Program-made: the position numbers and the translations under genes
IMG/VR virus record: IMGVR_UViG_3300027733_000147
Coordinates: 1 to 31,382 of that record
Strand: one strand, 5' to 3'
Source: a virus
Length of the DNA: 31,382 nt
Part shown: in pieces, positions 5,148-31,382 of the stretch
How the letters are laid out: each line of letters starts with the position of its first letter
How positions within the stretch are numbered: position 1 is the first letter of the stretch
Notes under the pieces: generated by a model
What the model saw: the letters and a program-made list of their open reading frames with translations, nothing else
Database searches by the model: none
Told to the model about the DNA's origin: nothing

Positions 5148-5150
5148 CAT

Positions 5151-18195: not shown

Positions 18196-18467
18196 CAGTT
18201 TTCCCAGTCGTCTTCGTGAAAGTCTTCTTCTTCCTCGACATCTTCCTCATCCTCATCCTCGTAGGATTTGTCATTGTCGAGATATGCGGTAAGAGCACGT
18301 TTGATATCTGAATCACCCTTGAATGTGTCCTTGATATCGTCTACATCACAGTCGTTGTCGATCAAGATAGCCACAACTGTTTCTGCTGCTTCGTCTCGAT
18401 CCACTGTGTTCACATAACGCTTGAGTTCTGACCACATTTCGCTGGCCACTGCTACTGCTTCATTCAT
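18195..18467 (-). CDS. small acidic hypothetical protein between uvsX and uvsY
   Basis: 90 aa. A helical N-terminal half (SEMWSELKRYVNTVDRDEAA, then VVAILIDNDCDVDDI) is followed by a very acidic C-terminus (about 68-90, mostly D and E). Proteins of this shape occur between uvsX and uvsY in aquatic T4-like phages, from memory. A role with the recombinase is suggested only by position and by overlaps on both sides (ATGA with uvsX, TGATG with uvsY). A DNA-mimic property is possible from the acidic tail but is speculation. Confidence 0.78.
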   Translation of the reverse strand: MNEAVAVASEMWSELKRYVNTVDRDEAAETVVAILIDNDCDVDDIKDTFKGDSDIKRALTAYLDNDKSYEDEDEEDVEEEEDFHEDDWEN

Positions 18468-19519
18468 TCTGCTGTCTCCTCAGCGGTACTTACCTCTTCT
18501 TTGTGATTTGCAAAGTCTGTCATGGCACGGTCCAAACAACCTTCTTCATTGGCTTCCCACTTCTTGCGGAACTTCTTGATGATCTCGCCGTCGGTAGTAA
18601 CAAACACTAGACTATTGCCTTCCTTCTTTAGCAGGTTGCGTTTCTCCATGAGATCCACCATACCCGAGTAAGGACTCATACCTGTTTCATAAGGAATCTT
18701 GACCTGCACGCCTTCAAATGGTTTTGCGTAGCGTGTTTTCATTACCTTACAAGCAGCACGGATACCCATGACATCTGAAATCTTGTTGCCATCCTCGTCC
18801 TCTTTGAGTTTGAGTTTCTTCATAGCCACAACGATACTACTAGCATAGATAAAGCCTTGACCGCCGGAGATCTTATCATCAGGATCAAACATATCTTGAC
18901 TTGCATATGTGTGATTGGTACACACCAATCCCACATTATATGAACCAAACATGTTCACACAGTTACGCACAAGACTGGTAAGTGCTTTGGGTTTACGACC
19001 AAGGTCACCTTTCATCTCGCCTGCATCAAACTGATTCACATCAGTGGGTGTGAGCAACATGCCTAGACTGTCAATCACAAACATGACTTTAGGACGTTCA
19101 CCGTCGGGCAATGCCTTGTAGTCGCTCATGAATGTTGAAATTGTTTTGGCCACATCGTCGATCATAGCCATGCTGAGTTTAAGCAGTTTGCTATCGCTAG
19201 TATCCACGCCCAGTGCTCTAAGCCAGTTTTCATCCAGGGCATTTTCACTGTCGATTAGCACAACATATATGCCCTGTGCTTGAGCGTTCTTGATAATGTT
19301 GCCGGAGCAGATATAACTTTTGCCTGCGCCCGAATCACCAGCAAACACAGTGACCTTGCCCAATGGAATACCTTTGTTAAAGTCTCCAGAGATCAAGTAG
19401 TTCAAGGCATAATTGCCTGTGGAGATCCAGTCTGTTGGATCGTTGAAACCAATGCTCAATCCTTCGATTGACTTGGTAATTTCCTTACGGAATTTTGAAA
19501 CATCAAAAGGTTTACCCAT
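18464..19519 (-). CDS. uvsX: UvsX RecA-like recombinase
   Basis: 351 aa. It is the phage homologue of RecA and forms filaments on ssDNA for strand exchange and recombination-dependent replication. Walker A is GDSGAGKS (61-68), Walker B VMFVID (145-150), with DSENALDENW (90-99), NHTYAS for the L2 region and GGQGFIYASS following. The start ATG 19519 has AGGTGA 5 nt upstream. It is encoded downstream of gp32 across a terminator and upstream of the small acidic gene and uvsY, the standard T4-like group. Confidence 0.97.
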   Translation of the reverse strand: MGKPFDVSKFRKEITKSIEGLSIGFNDPTDWISTGNYALNYLISGDFNKGIPLGKVTVFAGDSGAGKSYICSGNIIKNAQAQGIYVVLIDSENALDENWLRALGVDTSDSKLLKLSMAMIDDVAKTISTFMSDYKALPDGERPKVMFVIDSLGMLLTPTDVNQFDAGEMKGDLGRKPKALTSLVRNCVNMFGSYNVGLVCTNHTYASQDMFDPDDKISGGQGFIYASSIVVAMKKLKLKEDEDGNKISDVMGIRAACKVMKTRYAKPFEGVQVKIPYETGMSPYSGMVDLMEKRNLLKKEGNSLVFVTTDGEIIKKFRKKWEANEEGCLDRAMTDFANHKEEVSTAEETAE

Positions 19520-19538
19520 ATGTCACCTATTATTTTAT

Positions 19539-19569
19539 GAAAGAACACAGAGGGAGAACCCCTCTGTGT
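19539..19569 (-). terminator. Rho-independent terminator after gp32 gene
   Basis: A perfect 10-bp stem ACACAGAGGG / CCCTCTGTGT (19545-19554 with 19560-19569) and a 5-nt loop, followed on the minus strand by TCTTTC. It starts 12 nt after the gp32 stop. The tail is only moderately U-rich, so some readthrough into uvsX is expected; no separate promoter for uvsX was found. Confidence 0.75.
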
Positions 19570-19580
19570 GATACTGCTGC

Positions 19581-20561
19581 TTACTTGTTTTGACGGCTAC
19601 GGATCATGGCCAAGATGTCCTCGGCCTTTTTGTTGCCTTCTGCTGGCTTGGCCACTGGTGCCGTTGCCTCAGGAGTATCCTCGTCGTCGAATGCATCTAC
19701 AGGTGCCTTCACAGCAGGTGCTGCTTTGGGTGCTGGAGTATCTTCATCCGCATCCGGTGCTGCACCAGCAGGTGCTTGCATGCCAGCAGGACGGAAGTAT
19801 TGTCCCCAACGCTCCATGTCAAATGCTTTGCCATCCACACTTGCTTCAAACATTTCTTTCATGACCTTGAGTTCCACATCAGTGGGCTTCTTGGGCAAGA
19901 ATGTGCTCAAGTCAAACAAGCCGTGTGTCTCAATGGCTGCTTGTTCTTCTTCAGTGAGTGCTGATTCTTTGCGAGCCCACTTTGAAGTGTTGTAGTCAGC
20001 GTAGCCGCCCTTCTGTGTCTTAGTGATACGGAAGTCCAAGCCAGCCATGGTGTCGGTTGGCAGATTTTCCAATTCAGGATCCATCAATGCGCTCTTGATC
20101 AGGGTAAAGATCTGAGGTCCGATGATGAAACGACGGATTGGGTTAGGTGGTGTCTTGTCGTCAGCAAGAGGGTTTTCACGCACAAAGCCCTGGAACACAT
20201 AACTGCGTTTCTTCCAGTACTTACGACCCATGTCTTCCAGACTAGGATCCTTGAACCAAGGGCTGACCTCGGAAAGGATTGGACAAGTTTCGTTCCACAT
20301 GTGCATACATGGGACTTGCACCATTACCTGTTTACTATCCATCTCTCCTTTGACGCCGTTGAATGGCAGTCGGATCATGGCCCGTTCTACCCAGAAGAAT
20401 GTGTTTTTGGAGTTTGCGTCCGGTAAGAATCGGACTGTTGCGGATTGGCCTTCTTCCATGTTCCAGTGTGGGTAAATTGGATTTTCACCGCCACTGCCTC
20501 CGGATTTGCCTTTTGTCTCTGCTGCCTGTAGTCGTGCTCTGATTTCTGCTAAAGTTGCCAT
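19581..20561 (-). CDS. 32: single-stranded DNA-binding protein, gp32 family
   Basis: 326 aa. N-terminal LAEIRARLQAAE helix region with basic residues, an OB-fold core (QSATVRFLPD, FFWVERAMIRLPFNGV), and a zinc site region VPCMHMWNETCP (C85, H87, C93). A further SYVFQGFVREN element and a low-complexity A/P/D-rich acidic C-terminus (about 255-315) complete the gp32 architecture, ending AEDILAMIRSRQNK. It coats ssDNA and organises replication and recombination. Start ATG 20561 has AGGAGA upstream. It is expressed from an early promoter with a possible late promoter beside it, and has a structured leader. Confidence 0.94.
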   Translation of the reverse strand: MATLAEIRARLQAAETKGKSGGSGGENPIYPHWNMEEGQSATVRFLPDANSKNTFFWVERAMIRLPFNGVKGEMDSKQVMVQVPCMHMWNETCPILSEVSPWFKDPSLEDMGRKYWKKRSYVFQGFVRENPLADDKTPPNPIRRFIIGPQIFTLIKSALMDPELENLPTDTMAGLDFRITKTQKGGYADYNTSKWARKESALTEEEQAAIETHGLFDLSTFLPKKPTDVELKVMKEMFEASVDGKAFDMERWGQYFRPAGMQAPAGAAPDADEDTPAPKAAPAVKAPVDAFDDEDTPEATAPVAKPAEGNKKAEDILAMIRSRQNK

Positions 20562-20599
20562 AGTTTTTTCTCCTATAAAGTTGCCTATGTTAAATGCCT

Positions 20600-20615
20600 A
20601 TCTAATGATTTAGAT
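20600..20615 (-). promoter_or_regulatory. leader hairpin of gp32 mRNA, possible autoregulatory operator
   Basis: On the minus strand, ATCTAA (20615-20610) and TTAGAT (20605-20600) form a 6-bp stem with a 4-nt loop, 38 nt upstream of the ATG. AGGCA occurs three times around it (20625-20621, 20599-20595, 20586-20582). T4 gp32 binds a leader structure to repress its own translation; this is a candidate analogue, without proof. Confidence 0.4.
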
Positions 20616-20637
20616 TGTGTTGCCTGTGCCACAAATG

Positions 20638-20672
20638 AAAAAGCGCAAACACAGTAGTAGTATATGCGCTTT
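20638..20672 (-). terminator. terminator of the 400-aa gene, with a promoter in its loop
   Basis: On the minus strand, AAAGCGCA (20672-20665) pairs with TGCGCTTT (20647-20640) around a 17-nt loop, and the T-run TTTTT covers 20642-20638. It lies 26 nt after the stop at 20699. The loop contains the -10 TATACT of the gp32 promoter (20664-20659). Confidence 0.72.
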
Positions 20673-20687
20673 CTGTCTCTGTGTCAA
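20659..20687 (-). promoter_or_regulatory. sigma70-like promoter for gp32, TTGACA-17-TATACT
   Basis: On the minus strand, TTGACA lies at 20687-20682 and TATACT at 20664-20659, spacer 17 nt. The predicted start is near 20652, giving a leader of about 90 nt before the gp32 ATG. The new transcript lacks the first arm of the terminator hairpin, so it is not stopped by it. Confidence 0.82.
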
Positions 20688-20690
20688 TGT

Positions 20691-20698
20691 TATTTATG
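20691..20698 (-). promoter_or_regulatory. possible late promoter CATAAATA upstream of gp32
   Basis: The minus strand reads CATAAATA immediately after the stop codon (20701-20699) of the upstream gene, matching the NATAAATA late form. Initiation from it would begin before the terminator arm, so late transcripts would still have to pass the hairpin. This weakens the case. Confidence 0.4.
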
Positions 20699-21901
20699 TC
20701 ATTTGAGCGAACTCAGTGATTTTATTCTTGCCAGTTCAGCATCATACGAGGCTTCTTCAAAGGTAGCCATGTTGTCGCCTTCGGAGGTGAGACCTTTCCA
20801 GATGCCTTTGCCAAAGTCCACAACTCCTTTGGTTATGCTTTTAAGAGTTGAGCCAATGGTCATTCCTGTAGTCATGGGTGCGCCCATGTATTTTCTAGAG
20901 ATGTCTGGATACTTGGACATGGCTGCTGCTGTTTCTGGCCCTAGTTTTCCATCTGCTCCAAAACGTGGTAATGCGTTAGGGTCCTTGGCTAAGATTTCTT
21001 CTTGCATGTCTTTTACTTTTGGATCGATTGGAATGGTTTTTACTTTTTCCACTGGTGTTTTTGCGCCAGCATCTGCGGCATGAACACCACCTGCATCATC
21101 ACTACCGCCGGCAGCACTACCCGGTGTTTTCCTGGGTTGTCCAAGTACAATATCCTTGTCCTCTTCATCTTCTTCACCAACACCATTTTGTGGTGTACCC
21201 GGATTAAAAATGCTGTAGCCACCTACGCTTATAGTAGGGCTGAAACTTCCAGTCCAGCGGGCTTTGGCTATATCTGCTCGTTCTGCGGGACTAAACAGAT
21301 TCACAGGAACACGAACCTGTTTATCTCCATCTTGGCCCTTAAATCTCTCCCCCGGTGACACATGTAATGCATAGGGTATGTAGTTGGAGACCACATCAAA
21401 TCCCTGGATTGGGTTCCAGTTTTTTAAGCCCATCTGCTGTGCGAATTGCATGGCTCTTTTTGCCTGCATTGATGGACTATTAGAATACCCCAGTCCTTGA
21501 GTTTTTGAACGCATACCGGCAGTGTCTACTAGGTTAGGAGGCATGAGCAGTTTACCGGCATCGGAAGTCTCGTCGGCATCAATTAGATCCACGCTGGCCA
21601 GCCATCCGTTGTTTTTAATGTTAGGCAGATTCTGTTCTCCGCTTCCGCGGGCTGTGCCAGTCCACAGGCCTTGAAAGGTCTTTCCGCCGTCTTTACTGTA
21701 GAGATCGTATTGAGGCCACTTTTTGTGTTTCTGTAACCAGGTTCCGTATTTGGTCTCTTCTGGTGGAAAGTATCCATTATCGGGGCTGTCGTAAGGTAAA
21801 CGACCTCTGAAATCTCTGTCACCGTGAGTATCGTCGGCGGAAGAAAATTGGAATGCTTCGTTCAGTCCTGCCAGTTGGCGTATGCGATCAATGTTTTCCA
21901 T
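20699..21901 (-). CDS. probable virion protein with peptidoglycan-binding-like segment
   Basis: 400 aa. Residues 1-16 read MENIDRIRQLAGLNEA, ending in an LxE/A site like T4 prohead protease sites. The central part (about 60-235) has aromatic-rich segments without known fold. A low-complexity linker (about 240-290) is followed by VKDMQEEILAKDPNALPRFG and DGKLGPETAAAM (298-328), the shape of a PG_binding_1 repeat. The C-terminus DAELARIKSLSSLK resembles that of the adjacent 749-aa protein. Context among head and terminase genes suggests a structural or injected protein, and the PG-binding-like part hints at contact with the cell wall. Function unproven. Confidence 0.78.
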   Translation of the reverse strand: MENIDRIRQLAGLNEAFQFSSADDTHGDRDFRGRLPYDSPDNGYFPPEETKYGTWLQKHKKWPQYDLYSKDGGKTFQGLWTGTARGSGEQNLPNIKNNGWLASVDLIDADETSDAGKLLMPPNLVDTAGMRSKTQGLGYSNSPSMQAKRAMQFAQQMGLKNWNPIQGFDVVSNYIPYALHVSPGERFKGQDGDKQVRVPVNLFSPAERADIAKARWTGSFSPTISVGGYSIFNPGTPQNGVGEEDEEDKDIVLGQPRKTPGSAAGGSDDAGGVHAADAGAKTPVEKVKTIPIDPKVKDMQEEILAKDPNALPRFGADGKLGPETAAAMSKYPDISRKYMGAPMTTGMTIGSTLKSITKGVVDFGKGIWKGLTSEGDNMATFEEASYDAELARIKSLSSLK

Positions 21902-21912
21902 ATCAGGCCTCG

Positions 21913-24162
21913 TTATCTCATCAATTGTTTTATTCTTGCCAGTTCAGATTCAAACATGCTGGTGCCATAGCATTCTTCAAGACCATGCACCGGGCAGTAT
22001 TCGTTTTCCATAGTGTAATTGCATTCATTCACAGGTGTGGCCGGTGCATTGGGTTTGCCGGTCAATCGATTAACGCCTGCAGGAAGGTTAGTTGGCGCTC
22101 CACCAGCGGTAGGTCCTGTGTATGGTGCTGCTGGTGCTGCTGGTGCTGCTGCCGGAGGAGGTGCTGTCTTTGCCACAAACTGGCCGCCTGATGCATCTTT
22201 CACCGCCTGCTGTACAGCAGGGTCGGTACTTGCACCAACAACTGGGCCTGCTGGTGTTGCCGCTGGTGCATTAGGTTTTCCGGTTAAACGGTTGATACCT
22301 GCAGGAAGATTAGTCGGAGCTCCGCCGGCAGTAGGTCCCGTGTATGGTGCTGCTGCTGGTGGTGCTAAAGATTGGGCGGCTGCTTTATTAACAATATTTT
22401 GTTGATCTTGATTATTTTTCATAATAGCAGCTGCCTCTTCTGGAGTAGCATCAGCTGGTGGTAATGTCCAATTTTCATCCAACATGCCATGGTCGCTTAG
22501 ATCTCGATGCAAGCGATCACTGATCCATTCGTAAGGATCGCCACTGCGAGCCTTAGCCACACCATAGGGCATGTCTTCATGGTAGTAATCGTACAATGCA
22601 TCAAACAAGTGATCGCTGAGATCTCCGTGCTGGAGGAAATCATGGATGTCACGCTTGAATGTGTGCAGTATGTGCTTCAATGTGTGATGTGTGTTGTCTG
22701 TCAGTACATTTTCATTTATTTCCATACCGGCTAGCCTGCGAAGTTGATTGATACTTTCGGCCACCGGAGGCTGCTGTTCAGGAGCGGGTGGCGCTTCTGC
22801 TGTTGGTGCAGCAGGTGCAGCAGGTGCTTCTGCCGCGGGTGCTTCAGGAGCAGGTGGTGCGATTGGAGCAGCAGTTTGGAAACTCATGGCCAGTTCACTC
22901 AGTTCAGGACTCTGCCCCTTGTTGCGAGTGATCCAGGCTTGTAGGATGGGCACAGCATCTGCGTCTGGATCTTCTTGGGCCATGGCCGCAAGTTGATCAA
23001 ACAATGCATCATCACCAATCAAGTCATATAACACATCCGTGACATTCTCGGCGTCGGGACCTAGTGGGTGTGGTTGCCCTAACCAAGTCTTGAGTTTGGT
23101 CATCTTTTCTGGAGTATCAGGCAATGCCCAAGTTCCTTCTACCAATCTGGCAGCCCATGATTCAAATATATCTGCTTCTTTCATAGCTTTTACTTCCTGT
23201 TGTATCTTTGCCAACATGGGCAAAGCTGTTTCTATCCGTGGATCGATGCGTGTTTCCACAAACATGCCACGCAAGTCTTCTACCATGATATCACCTTGGG
23301 AGATATCTGCTGGCTTCCATGATTCAAAATAACGACTGTATCCACGGCTGGATGCCATGTGTTTCAAGTTGTGATTGAGTCTTTGATAGTATTGATCAGT
23401 CTCTGTGACCAACTCACCCGCAGCGCCTTCAAACATACGACCCTGGTGCGCTCTGCGAAACTGGCTCAATACATTGATCTGATTCACTGTTTCTGCGATG
23501 TGCTGACCACGCAGGTCGTAAGGATTACCACCTTGACGCACATGTTCTAACATAGCCCGACCACCGGCCAACTTGCGGAATGGCAAACGGAAACGCTCAC
23601 CTTCTACAGTTTCAATAAACAAACTCTCCACATAGCGATAACGCTTGTCACCTTCGGTGATAGGGCGTGTGTGTTTGATCATGAGTCTGGCTTCTGTGGG
23701 TTGACCACTATAACTGACCTTCCGTGTGCCGTAGAAACTTTCTGTGAGTGCTGCTTGCCCTGCGATGGCATATTTGAGTTTGCTCAAGTTTTCCAAGCCA
23801 AAGCCGCCGCGAATTTTGCTGGTGCGTATGGCAAAGTTTTTAAGTTGTTCTAAAAAGCCCGGGCTGTCTGTTTCTGAATCACCGTACCAGGCTTTTTTAT
23901 CTTCTGGCTCCATGGTACGACCCAAGTTGTCACCAAAATATACAGTCATACCGCCATTTTGATCCAACAATATAACCATGGTTCCGTAGTTCTTGCCTGT
24001 AGGGCCTACCCAGCCAAAACTAAACATGTCTGCTTCACTGGAATCCGGAACGCCGCGCTCATTGACAGCGGGTTTTCCAGTCTTGGTGCTGAGTGCATCC
24101 ACCTCAAAGTCGCGGGTGATCAGCAGATCGTTGAGTTCGCTTGCGATTGAATTCTGTGCCAT
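21913..24162 (-). CDS. large probable virion protein with repeats, 749 aa
   Basis: ATG 24162. Residues 1-330 form a conserved-looking globular region (MAQNSIASELNDLLITRDFE, FSFGWVGPTGKNYGTMVI, YGTRKVSYSGQPTEARLMIK) that recurs in aquatic T4-like phages (from memory). A long A/P-rich linker begins near 430. Then comes SINQLRRLAGMEINEN, a helical region with many His and Asp (about 490-560), and two copies of a 30-residue YTGPTAGGAPTNLPAG(I/V)NRLTGK repeat. Last is a Cys/His cluster (EYCPVHGLEEC) and the tail ELARIKQLMR. It is encoded right after the terminase. Probably a head-related or internal structural protein; no enzymatic function seen. Confidence 0.8.
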   Translation of the reverse strand: MAQNSIASELNDLLITRDFEVDALSTKTGKPAVNERGVPDSSEADMFSFGWVGPTGKNYGTMVILLDQNGGMTVYFGDNLGRTMEPEDKKAWYGDSETDSPGFLEQLKNFAIRTSKIRGGFGLENLSKLKYAIAGQAALTESFYGTRKVSYSGQPTEARLMIKHTRPITEGDKRYRYVESLFIETVEGERFRLPFRKLAGGRAMLEHVRQGGNPYDLRGQHIAETVNQINVLSQFRRAHQGRMFEGAAGELVTETDQYYQRLNHNLKHMASSRGYSRYFESWKPADISQGDIMVEDLRGMFVETRIDPRIETALPMLAKIQQEVKAMKEADIFESWAARLVEGTWALPDTPEKMTKLKTWLGQPHPLGPDAENVTDVLYDLIGDDALFDQLAAMAQEDPDADAVPILQAWITRNKGQSPELSELAMSFQTAAPIAPPAPEAPAAEAPAAPAAPTAEAPPAPEQQPPVAESINQLRRLAGMEINENVLTDNTHHTLKHILHTFKRDIHDFLQHGDLSDHLFDALYDYYHEDMPYGVAKARSGDPYEWISDRLHRDLSDHGMLDENWTLPPADATPEEAAAIMKNNQDQQNIVNKAAAQSLAPPAAAPYTGPTAGGAPTNLPAGINRLTGKPNAPAATPAGPVVGASTDPAVQQAVKDASGGQFVAKTAPPPAAAPAAPAAPYTGPTAGGAPTNLPAGVNRLTGKPNAPATPVNECNYTMENEYCPVHGLEECYGTSMFESELARIKQLMR
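22043..22131 (-). repeat. in-gene repeat copy B (C-terminal copy)
   Basis: It encodes YTGPTAGGAPTNLPAG followed by VNRLTGKPNAPA in the 749-aa protein. The matching copy begins 222 nt (74 codons) away. The copies differ mainly at third codon positions, so the duplication is old and kept by selection on the protein. Confidence 0.8.
22265..22353 (-). repeat. in-gene repeat copy A (N-terminal copy)
   Basis: It encodes YTGPTAGGAPTNLPAG followed by INRLTGKPNAPA in the 749-aa protein, in frame with the second copy 222 nt away on the window coordinates. The segment between is A/P/G-rich and less conserved. Confidence 0.8.
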
Positions 24163-24180
24163 GATGTATTTAGTTAACTT

Positions 24181-25749
24181 CTACATCATCACAGAGATGA
24201 ACGGATAGGGTTCAATCACTTCAGATTCGTGATCTTTCATCTGTGTGTCCAGTTCTGTATAGTAACTTTGCAGGGTAACAAGCATACGCACCGCTAGAAT
24301 TGTGGCCATGATCAAATCGTCAGTTTCGCCGGGTTTGGCAGCATAACTGGTGCCATGTGCTACAAAGTTCTTGAGTTCACTGATCAGACTTGCACTATTC
24401 ACACGCATACGCCCGCTCTCGATCAAGTTTTTTAGTTTAGAACAGGCAGCGATCTTGGCTCGATTTGTGGTGTTGTAGCCCTTGCGGAAGCGTCGTGTGG
24501 TAGGGCTAGAAGCATCGCTAAGGAAATAACCCTTGATGTTTTCTTCACCGTATTCCATGATGGATATCAAGGCTGCTTCACCAATGGTATTGTTTTCCAC
24601 ACTGTAGTAGATGCTCTTGTCATCGCCTACAGTATCATGCAAGTGTTTGATGATGTCGGCCATGATACGCACTTGTTCTGGAATAGGAGTTTTGTTGTGC
24701 CGCCATTCGCCCACTTGGCGTGTGGTGTTGGCTTCAAATATCTGGATGGCAGCAGGATCACCACCGGTGCCGAGACTAGGGTCTAGTGCCACCACATACA
24801 CTTGATCTTTGCGTATGGGTTCAAACCAACGCACTTGCCCTGTTCTGTGTATAGGGTCCTTGTGTTCCAGATCCAACAGTTTGGCAGGTGCAATCAAGGT
24901 CTCATCATTTATAATAAATTCACAATTCATCTCTCGACGGAAACGATCATCACCCAACTGGGCTCGCATGTTTTCACCCCAAGCAGCATCACGGTCCGGG
25001 TGTTCTTCCCAATAACTACGATATGCTTTGAATCCGTTCATGCCCAGGGGTGTGGGGTTGCCGTATTCATCTTCACACTTGTTGGCACCTTTCCACAAGA
25101 ACGCAAACTGATCCTCGTCCGAGTTGGGTGTGCTTGTGATGATGGCTTTACCACCTGTGGCCAGTGTGGGTGATATACTTGTCCAAAATTCTTTGGCTAT
25201 GGTGGGACGCACATAGGCAAACTCGTCAGCGTAGAGCAAGGTAATACTCATACCACGACCGGTTGTTTCTGTTGTGGTTGCACTCACTATGCGGCTGCCG
25301 TTTTCAAAGTCTATTGAGCCTTTGTTGTAGTTGGTGGCACCTGCTCGGATGTGATCTGGGCACAGTTCATAAGCAAAGCGGATGCGCTGCATGATCTCTT
25401 GAGCACCGGTGTATTTGTGTGCAGCGATCAGGATGGTAGAGTCTGGCACGAACATGGCATACCACAAGATGTATCCTGCTGCTGATGTTGATTTGCCGGT
25501 CTGTCGCGGCATCATGGAGATTGAATAGCGGTAGTTATGATATGTGTCAATCAGTTTCTTCTGATAATCAAAAGCATGATACAGCATCTTGCCCTGTGTG
25601 GGATGCTGGATGTAGAAGAAGTTGTCCATGAAGTAGGCTGGGCCTGTGTCAGGGTCAGCACATTTCAAGAACTCTTCCAGTTGTTGTTCTGTGAATTTCT
25701 GACGACGGTGTGGTGCTTTGATCAGCACCGTTTCATTAGCAGCGGCCAT
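24181..25749 (-). CDS. 17: terminase large subunit, gp17 family
   Basis: 522 aa. The packaging motor ATPase and headful nuclease of T4-like phages. Walker A-type PRQTGKST (81-88), Walker B LLYADE (171-176), coupling motif ITSTP (204-208). Nuclease domain acids are ALDPSLGTGGD (D323), YSVENN (E385) and GETDDLI (D477, D478). T4 gp17 is 610 aa, so this version is shorter, as in many aquatic relatives. It follows the secreted nuclease gene by 20 nt; no clear ribosome binding site is seen at ATG 25749. No small terminase gene is in the window. Confidence 0.97.
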   Translation of the reverse strand: MAAANETVLIKAPHRRQKFTEQQLEEFLKCADPDTGPAYFMDNFFYIQHPTQGKMLYHAFDYQKKLIDTYHNYRYSISMMPRQTGKSTSAAGYILWYAMFVPDSTILIAAHKYTGAQEIMQRIRFAYELCPDHIRAGATNYNKGSIDFENGSRIVSATTTETTGRGMSITLLYADEFAYVRPTIAKEFWTSISPTLATGGKAIITSTPNSDEDQFAFLWKGANKCEDEYGNPTPLGMNGFKAYRSYWEEHPDRDAAWGENMRAQLGDDRFRREMNCEFIINDETLIAPAKLLDLEHKDPIHRTGQVRWFEPIRKDQVYVVALDPSLGTGGDPAAIQIFEANTTRQVGEWRHNKTPIPEQVRIMADIIKHLHDTVGDDKSIYYSVENNTIGEAALISIMEYGEENIKGYFLSDASSPTTRRFRKGYNTTNRAKIAACSKLKNLIESGRMRVNSASLISELKNFVAHGTSYAAKPGETDDLIMATILAVRMLVTLQSYYTELDTQMKDHESEVIEPYPFISVMM

Positions 25750-25769
25750 AGTCAGTTAGTTATGCCGAA

Positions 25770-26579
25770 TTATTCGGATCGGCCACATTTGGCTCTTTTG
25801 GCCTTGGTCAGATTCCCAAAGTCCACTGCCCATTCCGATCCAGGATTGAGTTCTCGAGCATTTGGTGGAAATGCATAGTTCACTCTGCTATCGCGTTCGA
25901 TCAGGTCCACTGGCACACGGAACCGTGTTAGATCATTGCCCAGATTTGGGTAGGGTGGTACATGTGGAAACATCCAGCCTGCGATCTCGTTGGTCTGATT
26001 GTTTATAACGATCTTGTAGAACGCATGTGGCACAACTACGCCGTTGCCAATTCTCTTGTCTTGTGCATTGTAGATAGCACCCACATAGACGGTGAAACTG
26101 TTGTTGTGTTGCACAGCCCAACCACGGATTGATGTTTCCAGCAGTTTCCAGATACCACGATTCAAACTTCCGGCTTGTGGAGCCATGTTGGTCATCAGGA
26201 ATGATTCAAATTCTACTTGTTGGTCCCATGATAAATCACCATCTGGGCTCATGTGGCCTTTGTCGTAGCCAGTGCCGGCATAGTCATCGGGTGTGGCACC
26301 ATTGGGCACTGATTGATCTGTAGCAAACGCATTGGTTCGTGCCACACAGCCTAAAGCGTTTTTTGGTATGAGTTCGTAGGAAACAAATCTAGGTATCTTG
26401 GCTGTGATATCGTAGCCCACAAGATATGCTTGTCTACAGATAGGTTGTGTGCCTATAGCAGCAGGCATGCCATAAGGTGCATGCACAGCACAGGTTCGAA
26501 TGTCTTGCGGTGGTCGTTGTGTCCAAGCCTGTGCTGTGGCCGCGAGAAAAATTAAAGAGATCGCTAAAAGTTTTTTCAT
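25770..26579 (-). CDS. DNA/RNA non-specific endonuclease with signal peptide
   Basis: 269 aa. Residues 1-18 are a Sec signal peptide (MKKLLAISLIFLAATAQA, cleavage before W19). The mature part has C30 and C48 as a possible disulfide, then the catalytic element YDKGHMSPDGDLSW (H109), and SLNRGIWKLLETSIR (N140, E148), which are the His, Asn and metal-binding sites of the Serratia-type nuclease family. A SYELIP and a MFPH element also fit. It should be exported to the periplasm or outside. It is encoded just before the terminase with AAGGTAATCT as ribosome binding site. A role in degrading DNA at the cell envelope, nutrient recovery or exclusion is inference. Confidence 0.92.
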   Translation of the reverse strand: MKKLLAISLIFLAATAQAWTQRPPQDIRTCAVHAPYGMPAAIGTQPICRQAYLVGYDITAKIPRFVSYELIPKNALGCVARTNAFATDQSVPNGATPDDYAGTGYDKGHMSPDGDLSWDQQVEFESFLMTNMAPQAGSLNRGIWKLLETSIRGWAVQHNNSFTVYVGAIYNAQDKRIGNGVVVPHAFYKIVINNQTNEIAGWMFPHVPPYPNLGNDLTRFRVPVDLIERDSRVNYAFPPNARELNPGSEWAVDFGNLTKAKRAKCGRSE

Positions 26580-26582
26580 AGA

Positions 26583-26966
26583 TTACCTTGGGTAGCCTTT
26601 GAAGCCGCGCACAGGACTTTGATGATTTACCATTGAGGGCTCTAGGCTGTTTGGTGTACTTACTTGCACTTTTTTATCGGGTAGTCCTGCCATTTTTAGC
26701 GCCTGGTCAATCACTGGTTCAACTGTGGCATTGAATCCGGCCACAACTGCATGCTCGCCAAATGCTGCTTCTGCCGACCAAGCAGGCATATTGGGTATTT
26801 TGTCTGGGCCGGCATCGCTTCTGGCACGAGCCATGGCCACACCAAATCTATATATTTGGTATGGGTCTGACGAATTTACACCGGGCAACACAAACACATG
26901 ATTCATAGGATCTGCTTGCTCCGGCGGTAAAGTTTTTTCTTCAGTGATAAACTCTCGTGCTCTCAT
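26583..26966 (-). CDS. probable internal head protein with MRAREFITE tag
   Basis: 127 aa starting MRAREFITEEK, which matches the shape of the T4 internal-protein capsid-targeting sequence (MKTYQEFIAEA), with a possible protease site after ITE. The middle contains YQIYRFGVAMARARS, which recurs in aquatic T4-like phages (from memory). The C-terminus SPVRGFKGYPR is nearly the same as SPIKAFKGYAR in the next gene upstream, so the two are paralogues. A 4-nt overlap (26963-26966) joins them. Packaging in the head and delivery into the host is a hypothesis. Confidence 0.78.
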   Translation of the reverse strand: MRAREFITEEKTLPPEQADPMNHVFVLPGVNSSDPYQIYRFGVAMARARSDAGPDKIPNMPAWSAEAAFGEHAVVAGFNATVEPVIDQALKMAGLPDKKVQVSTPNSLEPSMVNHQSPVRGFKGYPR

Positions 26967-27337
26967 CTTGCATATCCTTTGAATGCTTTGATAGGACTTA
27001 CTGTGCTAGTGCTGGGGATTTCCTGACTGCGAAGATCACCCTTGTTGAGATCTTGAAATTCAGATCCTATGGCCTTGTAAGCCATTTTTAACATGTCGTG
27101 TTCTTCGGGTGTGTAAGGTGCTGCAATGTCATAACGACCGGCCCAGGATTCACCATCTATGTCAGGCACAAAAGTTCCATCGGTGCTGGCTGCTGCCATC
27201 ATGATACGATTTAGTTCATACACTCGATCGGCTCGATTAGGATCAACAAATTTGTGTAGACCCACTGTGGCAAAACTTTTTGTTTTGCTGAGTCGGCCTA
27301 CTGCTTGTCCTTCAGAGATGAACTCATTTGCTCGCAT
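26963..27337 (-). CDS. probable internal head protein with MRANEFISE tag
   Basis: 124 aa starting MRANEFISEGQ, again a T4 internal-protein-like tag with a possible cleavage after ISE. A VYELNRIMMAAAS segment parallels the RFGVAMARA segment of its paralogue, and the tail is SPIKAFKGYAR. It has no catalytic motif visible. The start ATG 27337 lies 1 nt from the preceding stop. It is probably co-expressed with the neighbouring virion genes. Confidence 0.78.
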   Translation of the reverse strand: MRANEFISEGQAVGRLSKTKSFATVGLHKFVDPNRADRVYELNRIMMAAASTDGTFVPDIDGESWAGRYDIAAPYTPEEHDMLKMAYKAIGSEFQDLNKGDLRSQEIPSTSTVSPIKAFKGYAR

Positions 27338-27338
27338 G

Positions 27339-27662
27339 TTAGATGCCGTTTGAGCCTGCTTTAGCGGATGATGCTGTGCCTAATGCGACGGCTGTAAAAT
27401 TTGTGCCTGTTAAGATCAAATAGTTGCCTGCGCCCACATAAATTTCTTGGATGGTTCCATTGGGCACAGATACTGCATTGGCATACAAGTTGCCAGTGGC
27501 AGTGCTCATGGTAGCATTGGCAGGAACACCGTTGGCCTGTATGTAAGTCAGTTGTTGCACATTGACTTGATAGGTCACATTATTGCTTTCAGAATTGATC
27601 TGGGCTTTGTCTGTGGTCCATAACACATTGCCGGCTGTGTCCTTGATTACTTGAATAGCCAT
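27339..27662 (-). CDS. small beta-rich probable virion protein, 107 aa
   Basis: Starts MAIQVIKDTAGNVLWTTDKA and has alternating hydrophobic and T/S/N-rich strands (YQVNVQQLTYIQANG, GTIQEIYVGAGNYLILTGTN), ending AKAGSNGI. The composition is that of capsid decoration or tail-type beta proteins. Upstream is AAGGATAAC as ribosome binding site and a TCTAAATA sequence that is one base away from the late form. Assignment as structural rests on composition and position only. Confidence 0.72.
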   Translation of the reverse strand: MAIQVIKDTAGNVLWTTDKAQINSESNNVTYQVNVQQLTYIQANGVPANATMSTATGNLYANAVSVPNGTIQEIYVGAGNYLILTGTNFTAVALGTASSAKAGSNGI

Positions 27663-27841
27663 TATTTGTTATCCTTATTTAGATCTGCCACTGCCACGGG
27701 ACGGAACAGATTTGTGGTCTGGCTCAGCACACCGGGGATCATCACAGGTTGATTCCGCACTTCCTGTGGCGTAGGTGCGGGCGGATGTCGTTCCGACAAC
27801 CGTGCCATGGTCTCTGCGTAGGTCTGAAATTGATTGGTCAT
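27662..27841 (-). CDS. small hypothetical protein, 59 aa
   Basis: ATG 27841 (MTNQFQTYAETMARLSERHP) is chosen over a TTG at 27862 because an AGGT element lies 7 nt upstream and the ATG follows the preceding stop by 4 nt. The middle is proline-rich (PPAPTPQEVRNQPVMIPG) and the end is polar. No domain is recognised. Its end overlaps the next start as TAATG. It could be a connector or accessory structural peptide, but nothing in the sequence proves it. Confidence 0.65.
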   Translation of the reverse strand: MTNQFQTYAETMARLSERHPPAPTPQEVRNQPVMIPGVLSQTTNLFRPVAVADLNKDNK

Positions 27842-27845
27842 ACGA

Positions 27846-30761
27846 TTACCTAAGTCCAGCAATTTCCATCATGCGACGCAGTTCGTGATCACCGTCTGAT
27901 CCCATGCGGTCATTTTGATGTGCGATGATTGGAGTAGTAGTTTGGCCAGTTGACTTTGGACCATTCAATCCACCGCTGTACATCATGGCATCGTCTGTAC
28001 CTTCTTCGTCTGTGGGCCAATCTGGTTCATTTTCAGACGCATCAGTGTCGCCGTAGGCTTCTTCTATTTCATTATATCCACCTTGGCCAGCAGATGCCGC
28101 ACCGGGTGTTCTAAAAGATGGAGCCTGGCCGGCTCGTCCCAGTCTTGCTGTTTCTGCATCGTGCTGATCAGGGTCAATGTCGGTTACATAAGGAGTTCCG
28201 TCTGGATTGGTTGCGATATTTTCCATCATGCCATCGCATTCGCATTCAGTAGATCCACATTCTTCGCATGGCTCATCACCGTGCATGTGATTGATATTGT
28301 GCAAAGCATCCATGTCAGAATCATCACCAGTCATGGCGTGGATATGTTCATCACCATGCCCTAGTCCAGCCATCTTCAGCAAGCCGGCCAACATCACAGC
28401 ATCTTCATCTGTGGCAGTAACTGTAAGGCTTTGGCGCGGACCGCCGTGATCGTCGTTGTTCATGCTCATGTTGATGTTCATTGACTCAGAGATCATGTTT
28501 TCCAACTGACGATTTAGACTGTCGTAGATACCTTTGCCGTAACTATGGCCGCCAGACTTGGGTGCAGCAGCACCAGTAGCAACTGATCCAGAAGTTGTAG
28601 TTTCATCCACTTCTTTTTTCTTCTTGTCTTTTTTCTTCTCGTCGTACTCAATGTCCTTGGTAACTTTCTTACCGGCTCGTTCAGCTTTGTCATCTTCGCT
28701 ACCACGGCGTTTACCGTGAATACCGTCTTTTCTCTTCTCATCGTATTCGATATCTTTGGCTACCTTGCGGCCGGCTCGTTCGGCACGGTTATCACGCTTG
28801 CTGGTTCGCTCTTCGTCCATTTCCATATCGTCGCCGCTGTCATCGTCATTCTGATTCTGCATGTAGTCATCCACAGCAGTCATCATGCCTTCGATCTTGG
28901 CCAGCTTGGATTGCACCCATTCTGGCAGATTATCCTCGTCACCTAGTATCTTTTCCAAGGCTTGTGCATGGCGCACCACAGTCTTGATATCGTCCTTGGC
29001 CATTTCGCCTTCGCGATCGTATTCACCTGAATCTTGTGGCTCAATCATGTCTTCGGGCATGTCGCCTTCTTTGGTCATGAGTTTTGATGTGCCTCGATTG
29101 ATTTTAGCGCCAATCTTCTTGCCCATGCCTGCTCCAACCTTACGGCGGCCTACAGCACCACTTGGCTCATCATCGGCACCGGCGTCGTGTCCTGCACCGC
29201 TGTAGTTGCCTTTCACTGCACGATGGCGTGTGACACCTGGTTCAGAGGTATCAATTCTACCACCGGTGCTTGACCTACGGCTAGTGGGTTCGTCGTCTAG
29301 GAAACTTTCGTCCATGTCAGCATGAGGTTTGCGACCTTTGCTTCTTGCCCATTCGTCTTCTGCGTCATGACGACGTTGATTACGGGCCCTTGCAAAATGA
29401 TCACTTGCAAACTCATCGTCTTGTTGTTGTCCGCGTTGATAACTGCTTTGTCCTCTGCTGCCAACTGCTTTCTTCATAGCATCGGCTGCTACATCGCCTA
29501 ACATTTCGTCCACTTCTTTCTTGGCACCAACAATCTTGTCAGCGAAAGTGATCTTGTCAAAAGGTTTTGCCAAAGCAGCAAATTTCTTTTGCTTGGGTGT
29601 CATTGGCACGCCACCTTCTTTTACCGGATCATCAATGGCCTGTGGAGGATACATGGCTGGCTTCTTTGGAGCAGGCTTAGGTGCCACAGGTGGGCGAGGT
29701 GCGCTGGCTTTGGGTGCAGGCTTAGGTGGTGGTGTCCAATCATCCACATGTTGTGGAGTGGCATCAACTTCGTCTAGCCCTAATGCTGATTTGATGCGTC
29801 CTCCCATGGTCTTACCATATGCAGATTTTTCTTTGTTATGCCGCATTACATCACCTAACCGATCGCCCACATCTTGAGCTCGACTAAACCCTTTAGTTGT
29901 TAACTCACTATTGCGTTTCTTGTCAGAAATACGAGGATTATATAATTGAAATTCATTGCTGTATTCTTCTGCGTCGGCTTCGTCGCCGCCTCTGTCACCT
30001 CTTATATCTAGATGGCGAACATGTGCTTCATCCGTTATGCTTTCATCATACTTGTCATACTGGTTGCGAATCTTTTTCATGGTGCTATCACTAGCATTGT
30101 TTCTTCCGGCCTTTTGTAATGCCTGCATACCTTGATCACCATATTTCTTTTTGCCAAACGCAGCTTGTAATGCACTTTCATCCATGTCTTTCTTGGCACT
30201 GCGAGCAGCAGATTTCATTGGCTCTTTGCGATTTCCGTCTTTGTCAAGATCCAAGAAGTCTGGCTTGCCGCCTTCCTTCATTGTGGACTTGTAAGGCTTG
30301 AGTTGAGATTGATTCACGCCTTCTTTGGTTGGGAGACCCGGTGGCGTTATCGGTACGGGTCTTGTTGCTTCGTGCTCGGCCCAGCGTTTTTGCATATACC
30401 GATCAAATTTAGCTGTTTCAACACTTGGAATTTGTCCTGGTGGACCATAATGTTTTGGAGGCTCGACACCTTCCTTTGTAGGGTGACGCAGTTTGTTCAA
30501 CACAGCACCTGCCACACGCTTGCCTGCTTCTGCACTGCCATACTTCTTGGCAGCACCAGCAGCGATCTTGCTGAAGTTCTTGCCCGGCTTGCCGATGTCT
30601 TTGCCGGCTGCGGCTTTCTTGGCTGAATAGTCAGCGGCTGCTTCCATCAACCGGTTGGGTGCAGGCTTGGCTGGAGCAGATTGGGCATCTTCAGCCAATT
30701 GCTGCTTTTTAGCCAAGTCGGCCATCTTCTTGTTCATGTCATAGAAAAAATAATCGCTCAT
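27846..30761 (-). CDS. large low-complexity probable virion protein, 971 aa
   Basis: ATG 30761 has AGAGGATAAACC upstream. The N-terminus MSDYFFYDMNKKMADLAKKQ runs into LAED, a possible LxE protease site. Most of the protein is charged and low in complexity, with segments typical of aquatic T4-like phages (from memory): GVPMTPKQKKFAALAKPFDK, then ITFADKIVGAKKEVDEMLGD. There is a tandem ERAGRKVAKDIEYDEK repeat and a SMNINMSMNND segment. A Cys/His cluster GDEPCEECGSTECECDG follows, with several His just before it. It ends ELRRMMEIAGLR. Probably a scaffold, core or internal protein; unproven. Confidence 0.82.
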   Translation of the reverse strand: MSDYFFYDMNKKMADLAKKQQLAEDAQSAPAKPAPNRLMEAAADYSAKKAAAGKDIGKPGKNFSKIAAGAAKKYGSAEAGKRVAGAVLNKLRHPTKEGVEPPKHYGPPGQIPSVETAKFDRYMQKRWAEHEATRPVPITPPGLPTKEGVNQSQLKPYKSTMKEGGKPDFLDLDKDGNRKEPMKSAARSAKKDMDESALQAAFGKKKYGDQGMQALQKAGRNNASDSTMKKIRNQYDKYDESITDEAHVRHLDIRGDRGGDEADAEEYSNEFQLYNPRISDKKRNSELTTKGFSRAQDVGDRLGDVMRHNKEKSAYGKTMGGRIKSALGLDEVDATPQHVDDWTPPPKPAPKASAPRPPVAPKPAPKKPAMYPPQAIDDPVKEGGVPMTPKQKKFAALAKPFDKITFADKIVGAKKEVDEMLGDVAADAMKKAVGSRGQSSYQRGQQQDDEFASDHFARARNQRRHDAEDEWARSKGRKPHADMDESFLDDEPTSRRSSTGGRIDTSEPGVTRHRAVKGNYSGAGHDAGADDEPSGAVGRRKVGAGMGKKIGAKINRGTSKLMTKEGDMPEDMIEPQDSGEYDREGEMAKDDIKTVVRHAQALEKILGDEDNLPEWVQSKLAKIEGMMTAVDDYMQNQNDDDSGDDMEMDEERTSKRDNRAERAGRKVAKDIEYDEKRKDGIHGKRRGSEDDKAERAGKKVTKDIEYDEKKKDKKKKEVDETTTSGSVATGAAAPKSGGHSYGKGIYDSLNRQLENMISESMNINMSMNNDDHGGPRQSLTVTATDEDAVMLAGLLKMAGLGHGDEHIHAMTGDDSDMDALHNINHMHGDEPCEECGSTECECDGMMENIATNPDGTPYVTDIDPDQHDAETARLGRAGQAPSFRTPGAASAGQGGYNEIEEAYGDTDASENEPDWPTDEEGTDDAMMYSGGLNGPKSTGQTTTPIIAHQNDRMGSDGDHELRRMMEIAGLR
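28632..28685 (-). repeat. in-gene tandem repeat, unit 2
   Basis: Encodes KAERAGKKVTKDIEYDEKKK in the 971-aa protein. The other unit lies 99 nt away in frame. The nucleotide copies differ mostly at third positions. Confidence 0.7.
28731..28784 (-). repeat. in-gene tandem repeat, unit 1
   Basis: Encodes RAERAGRKVAKDIEYDEKRK in the 971-aa protein, 33 codons before unit 2. Both are strongly charged and probably form helices. Confidence 0.7.
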
Positions 30762-30764
30762 GGT

Positions 30765-31373
30765 TTATCCTCTTGGTGTTGCGAAAGTAGCAGGCCGTGG
30801 CGTGCGTTTGACATCAGTCATTGGACTCTTTGTGTCCTGCTTGATATCATTGGTGGTTTTTGCTGGAGGTGTTTTGCCACCGGCTACTGTGAAATCTGAA
30901 CGATATGCATTTTGTAATACCGCATGTTTGTATGGATCACCGGAGTAATCTTTCTTCAAGGCCTGCTGTTCGGCATCAGGTGCAGGATAATCGGTATCAG
31001 CGATCAAGTCCTTGTTCTGTGCGTTGATGTCAGAAATTTCTTTGTCAATGCTGTCTACATATGGTTGTGTCAACAGTCGGATCCTGTTGGGATTGAACCC
31101 TAACAGTTGAGCCAGTTGTTGTATCTGTGGTTCGATAGCCGGATAACGGAAACTCACATCCACTGACGTAACCATGTCATTTTCTTCGTTGGGGAAGTCT
31201 TTTAATAGTCGCTGCACCGGTGTGGTCTTTTTGCCTGACATCTTGACAATGTCAAACTGTTCGAGTTTTTGTTCCAGATCCTTGATAAAGGTTGGGGGCA
31301 CATCGCCCAGGATCTTGATCCTGTAATCGTATGTGCGTTCGCTTTCTGCAAGATATTGGTGAAATTTTTTCAT
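30765..31373 (-). CDS. probable internal or structural head protein with MKKFHQYLAE tag
   Basis: 202 aa starting MKKFHQYLAESERTYDYRIK, which aligns with the T4 internal-protein tag MKTYQEFIAEA: K2, aromatic, Q, aromatic, I/L, A, E. Residues 14-110 look like a small alpha/beta domain (YRIKILGDVPP, KKTTPVQRLLKDFP, VTSVDVSFRYPAIEPQIQQL). A similar domain after a similar tag occurs in cyanophage proteins, from memory. The C-terminal half is polar and basic (TKSPMTDVKRTPRPATFATPRG). The start ATG 31373 is 9 nt from the window edge, so its upstream signals cannot be seen. Confidence 0.8.
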   Translation of the reverse strand: MKKFHQYLAESERTYDYRIKILGDVPPTFIKDLEQKLEQFDIVKMSGKKTTPVQRLLKDFPNEENDMVTSVDVSFRYPAIEPQIQQLAQLLGFNPNRIRLLTQPYVDSIDKEISDINAQNKDLIADTDYPAPDAEQQALKKDYSGDPYKHAVLQNAYRSDFTVAGGKTPPAKTTNDIKQDTKSPMTDVKRTPRPATFATPRG

Positions 31374-31382
31374 ATCAGAGTC

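Follow-up and report, generated by a model that had tools for sequence, protein, structure and literature searches.

The window analysed here is the entire 31,382-nucleotide stretch of the viral record IMGVR_UViG_3300027733_000147. This 31.4-kb record derives from a jumbo T4-like phage and carries gp32, a UvsX-like gene and the gene for the terminase large subunit; all features located below lie on its minus strand. The gp32 gene (19581–20561) encodes a single-strand DNA-binding protein of 326 aa (phrog_1192, E 8e-65). Upstream of it lies a 400-aa gene (20699–21901) that ends in a TGA stop codon at 20701–20699 and has no PHROG match; in PA5oct, CBB, Ettore and other phages, the neighbour at the corresponding position carries the annotation virion structural protein. 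Read along the minus strand, the stop codon of the 400-aa gene is followed by CATAAATA, TTGACA, a spacer of 17 nt, TATACT, a leader of about 90 nt and the gp32 start codon. The sequence at 20562–20629, including the ribosome site, is the leader portion common to both predicted gp32 transcripts. Three AGGCA motifs and a small AUCUAA/UUAGAU hairpin occur in this leader (20625–20582) and recur in many relatives; together they are possibly a translational operator. Between gp32 and uvsX there is also a strong 11-bp terminator-like hairpin, ACACAGAGGGGTTCTCCCTCTGTGT, at 19569–19545.

Two promoters can be predicted for gp32, both from consensus sequences. The early one is of the sigma70 type (TTGACA, 16–18 nt, TATAAT), with a −35 hexamer TTGACA at 20682–20687 and a −10 hexamer TATACT at 20659–20664. 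With 11 of 12 consensus positions matched, TTGACA-17-TATACT is the top promoter-like site across positions 18400–31382. The corresponding transcription start is predicted, approximately, at 20652, 7 nt downstream of the −10. A second and different overlap of terminator and promoter is present at 5148–5092, where a terminator-like hairpin (GGCAGGTGTC..GGCACCTGTC) has a T-tract, TTTTTGACTT, that extends into TTGACT, the −35 of a TTGACT-17-TATACT promoter.

The second predicted gp32 promoter is of the T4 late type. T4 late promoters consist of an 8-bp TATA box, TATAAATA or a near variant, spanning −13 to −6 and lacking a −35 element (PMC2988020). These boxes lie about one helical turn upstream of the start, their first base being position −13 (PMC2988020), which places +1 six bases past the box. 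In the window, the box CATAAATA (20691–20698) follows the TGA of the 400-aa gene directly and deviates from the consensus once, at −13; its sixth downstream nucleotide, a G at 20685, is the predicted late start.

The early promoter overlaps a strong RNA hairpin, and the late box precedes it. The minus-strand structure has an MFE of −22.2 kcal/mol (z −5.8), a stability reached by 0 of 200 shuffled sequences, and RNA beginning at the predicted late start folds at −23.3 (z −5.4); the plus strand has no significant fold (z −0.5). The 5′ arm (20660–20683) comprises an outer segment CACAGA (20683–20678), an inner segment AGAAAGCGCA (20674–20665) and an apical segment AUAC (20663–20660). Its partners in the 3′ arm (20630–20652), which covaries with it in relatives, are GUGU (20652–20649), UGCGCUUUUU (20647–20638) and outer UUUGUG (20635–20630). 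The outer stem extends the hairpin to about 55 nt, brings part of the −35 into the 5′ arm, and on the 3′ side runs past a terminator-like U-tract, UUUUU, at 20638–20642. The first-pass annotation had placed the −10 in the hairpin loop. In the MFE structure it is mostly paired: ATAC, four of its six bases, forms the apical stem with GUGU, its first U stands at a U–U mismatch, and only its last U lies in the loop. The spacer was said to contain one stem arm; the outer arm reaches into the −35 as well. The proposal that a transcript born at this promoter lacks the 5′ arm, and that longer transcripts carry the full hairpin, is supported.

Comparison of about 150 related gp32 loci, from a family of giant freshwater phages, shows that the arrangement of a promoter within a hairpin is conserved. 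When gp32 queries were run against viral contigs in four scans, they yielded 151 distinct upstream regions besides the window, and these loci, which are related to one another, supply comparative sequence as the sole type of evidence. Simple rules served to assign the groups, and initially put six loci from the window's clade into D; these initial labels underlie the counts of U-tracts, per-group wobble pairs, unpaired 5′ ends and terminators, and corrected labels were used in the chimera and ribosome-access tests. Group A, the window's type, has the late box, TTGACA or TTGACG, TATACT or TACACT, a long hairpin and, in most loci, the U-tract. In group B the late box lies within the sigma70 spacer and the hairpin is shorter. 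Group D keeps the element order of group A with very different hairpin sequences, and neither B nor D has a U-tract. TTGAC and TATACT/TACACT recur across all three groups. The gp32 of group D forms a separate clade, about 57% identical to the gp32 of the window; the gp32 tree separates D proper, a well-supported clade (100/99), from a clade of A, B and C (99/93), and the hairpin thus occurs on either side of this split. Among the phage records searched, no gp32 exceeds about 56% identity to that of the window. The first-pass annotation had looked to relatives for covariation in the stem and a conserved −10 in the loop: stem and promoter are indeed conserved with compensatory changes, with the −10 located outside the loop.

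The arrangement was also met from the other direction. A pattern scan of viral contigs for a late box plus promoter was made without reference to gp32, and among the matches listed, of which 80 loci were read, at least 51 lie just upstream of gp32. Within this same set, the mean MFE was −23.5 at the loci upstream of gp32 versus −10.0 for the rest. No such composite was seen by eye in PA5oct, Ettore, Phosso, Atu_ph07, CBB, XbC2, 121Q, SE_PL or Vibrio 2.275.O. Group C (L009, L013, L020, L055, L069) was left out of the claim because its stem score did not exceed that of shuffled sequences in the automated stem test. Upstream of gp32 these loci carry a CACAG..CTGTGTATAATAA promoter; short arms around the −10, such as ACAGTC/GACTGT and CCTAG/CTAGG, seem to pair, and several of the loci have a separate strong hairpin 3′ of the late box. 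Many group D loci have a separate terminator-like hairpin further upstream. In addition, group D leaders (L282–L361) contain a second hairpin, for example GUUACUUCAUAGGGAAGUAGC, which has an AUAGG-like loop and is located about 40–80 nt upstream of the gp32 ATG; it adjoins the 3′ side of the late hairpin, and its stem varies in sequence with pairing kept, as judged by eye.

The pairing itself appears to be under selection at the level of sense-strand RNA. A stem finder that treats G·T and A·C mismatches alike recorded 302 G·T and 93 A·C in 111 loci, a ratio of 3.25 compared with 1.10 in shuffles. The ratio was 3.0 (bootstrap 2.1–4.4) after clustering at 90% identity and 2.4 (1.5–4.3) after clustering at 75%; at 65%, with nine clusters left, it was 1.63 (0.67–3.85) and not significant. 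By group, the ratio was 3.50 in A and 3.07 in D, and the group B test gave 0.91 against 0.74. Such an excess of G·U over A·C indicates selection on the sense-strand RNA and not on a DNA palindrome. In group A, compensatory pairs occur in both the inner and the outer stems, and the outer stem beyond the U-tract is paired at 0.731, compared with a maximum of 0.694 in 1000 permutations. RNAalifold did not recover a consensus structure in group D, probably owing to variation in the stem register, and an alignment-free chimera test was therefore used. Native halves were more stable than chimeras with the 3′ half of another locus in 73% (A), 82% (B) and 91% (D) of comparisons, and by this test the two halves of the hairpin are co-adapted.

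By frequency alone the late box would carry little weight, since YATAAATA occurs in the window at about the chance level (2 versus 1.5); its significance derives from its fixed position in relatives. There, GATAAATACTATT and CATAAATA are found at fixed spacing: in group A 40 of 44 loci, and in group D 59 of 67, have the late box 5 nt ahead of the G of TTGAC. The late sigma factor was sought in five long relatives, the window record being a fragment, and all five have matches to T4 gp55 (E 6e-7 to 2e-5; 27–33% identity). The hairpin is absent at two other late-consensus sites in the relatives' genomes and at one in the window, a small sample from which it seems not to be a generic late feature.

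In groups A, B and D the 5′ end of the hairpin coincides with the start that the late box predicts. The predicted late RNA has no unpaired 5′ nucleotide at 106 of 129 loci (31/44 in A, 16/18 in B and 59/67 in D), compared with shuffled medians of 3–4, and 0–3 unpaired nucleotides at every A and B locus and at 91% of those in D. As in stabilising 5′-terminal stem-loops, few or no unpaired nucleotides would thus stand ahead of the stem. Across the late box the mean pairing probability is low, and it rises steeply within 3 nt of +1 in all three groups, from 0.05 at −2 to 0.85 at +1 in group A and with a step at −3 in group D. In group B the late box is shifted by about 18 nt (lower) relative to the sigma70 promoter, and the start of the hairpin shifts along with it. 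The late-type sequence had been noted in the first pass as something that might add late expression; it is present, though not as an optional extra, as the hairpin begins at the start it predicts.

An earlier interpretation of the locus regarded the hairpin as the intrinsic terminator of the 400-aa gene and placed the gp32 promoter inside it: read-through would stop there, and RNA born at the promoter would escape. Group A lends this some substance: a T-run of 5–6 is found in 35 of 44 loci next to a GC-rich stem, the promoter-born RNA does lack the 5′ arm, and no separate terminator scoring above 0 lies between the upstream gene and the late box. By a d-type terminator score (a simplified formula; threshold 0), 31 of the 44 loci in group A lie above the threshold, compared with 0 of 18 in B and 2 of 67 in D. 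The hairpin of the window scored −9 by the same formula, just below the threshold and hence a borderline terminator, and a generic terminator scan of the window does not list it. A GC-rich stem with a U-tract therefore describes group A and not the conserved element as a whole; a universal terminator was rejected, as B and D keep the hairpin without the U-tract. Moreover, the group A pairing that lies past the U-tract covaries, which suggests that RNA not stopping there is under selection, and it is the predicted late start, not a distance set by the sigma70 promoter, that marks where the hairpin begins. As a terminator the hairpin thus finds support in the window's own subgroup, and as an account of the whole element this interpretation is unlikely.

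A related possibility is attenuation, in which the group A late promoter would mainly yield a terminated RNA of about 50 nt and late gp32 transcription would be shut down or metered. The late-box transcript does include the entire hairpin and the U-tract, and the terminator score is positive in the same majority of group A loci. Attenuation nevertheless appears quite improbable, given that groups B and D combine late box and hairpin with no U-tract to act on, and that covariation in the outer stem requires RNA reaching past the U-tract.

Control of gp32 translation as in T4 gene e, with the ribosome site hidden or freed within one transcript, would likewise rely on nesting a promoter in a hairpin. 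Predicted access to the ribosome site is, however, the same in late and early RNA (0.53/0.53 in A, 0.55/0.56 in B and 0.62/0.63 in D), which sets the element apart from the T4 lysozyme switch, and in the window the hairpin ends about 70 nt before the gp32 start codon; this makes translation control very improbable indeed. Finally, a dimeric regulator might bind the promoter DNA at an operator or cruciform. This could account for the near-palindromic sequence that groups A and B show around the −10, but hardly any credence can be given to it, as a roughly threefold preference for sense-strand G·U over A·C is unexpected for a strand-symmetric DNA site and the sequence varies widely with pairing kept.

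The comparisons across the three groups point to another explanation: late gp32 mRNA probably begins with the hairpin as its 5′-terminal structure, and the 5′ arm of this hairpin would incorporate the early promoter. According to this model, late RNA polymerase with a gp55-type sigma factor would start at G20685, six bases past the late box, and the new RNA would fold at once, its 5′ arm being encoded by the early sigma70-type promoter itself. The early start, at about 20652, would fall inside the 3′ arm, so that early mRNA could not form the hairpin. Both transcripts would then have the downstream leader and ribosome site in common. In group A, the U-tract probably has the further effect of terminating some of the transcripts that arrive from upstream. 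A point against the model is that a group A late transcript would run into the U-tract about 45 nt from its start, which is hard to reconcile with productive late transcription unless the polymerase often reads through.

The function of such a hairpin is most likely 5′-end protection or leader insulation: it would shield the late gp32 mRNA from 5′-end-dependent decay, or close off the extra promoter-derived sequence. In E. coli, RppH is impeded by hairpins at the 5′ end, which can also make an mRNA more stable (PMC3997798). No other T4 mRNAs are as stable as the transcripts of gene 32, whose leader contains a pseudoknot and an RNase E site (PMC3014915); these precedents favour the two proposed functions. 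Folding did not predict a more open 5′ end for early than for late mRNA, which weakens the stability reading. A more far-reaching interpretation, offered tentatively, is that of a sigma-factor-dependent RNA switch. The same stretch of about 55 bp would serve as early promoter DNA and as a late 5′-capping hairpin, the choice of sigma factor would decide whether the mRNA receives a protective (in some phages terminating) 5′ structure, and the device would have been kept across two well-separated clades despite sequence turnover.

Several known systems resemble parts of this arrangement. In T4 gene e, I-TevI and Aeh1 mobE, a hairpin hides the ribosome site in early RNA and a nested promoter acts late (PMC3014915); the late box of T4 e, read directly from its sequence, lies in the hairpin loop. 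The gp32 element shares with them a promoter in hairpin DNA, with RNA started inside lacking the 5′ strand that longer RNA carries. It differs in that the nested promoter is of the sigma70 type, the hairpin is on the predicted late RNA, and predicted access to the ribosome site is unaffected. As in the ompA, papA and 5′-hairpin bla mRNAs of E. coli, the hairpin is predicted to stand at the very 5′ end of the transcript. To our knowledge, the ompA, papA and bla stem-loops have no second promoter built into the 5′ arm. T4 gene 32 offers a parallel in the same gene, being subject to unusual post-transcriptional control (PMC3014915), as is predicted for the gp32 of the window, and it also has TATAAATA about 160 nt upstream; no comparably strong hairpin is predicted in the last 90 nt of its leader. 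Group A further resembles intrinsic terminators that overlap promoters, in that its stem and U-tract overlap the promoter, and departs from them in that pairing extends beyond the U-tract and that relatives lacking one retain the hairpin. A literature search, with most subscription papers outside its reach, found no direct precedent.

This element shows how two promoters used at different times can share about 60 nt with an RNA structure, the promoter doubling as one strand of the hairpin, an arrangement that inverts the classical layout of T4 lysozyme. It also cautions that a hairpin followed by a U-tract in a single genome need not be primarily a terminator. For these phages, it offers a testable explanation for a possible difference in the behaviour of gp32 mRNA between early and late infection.
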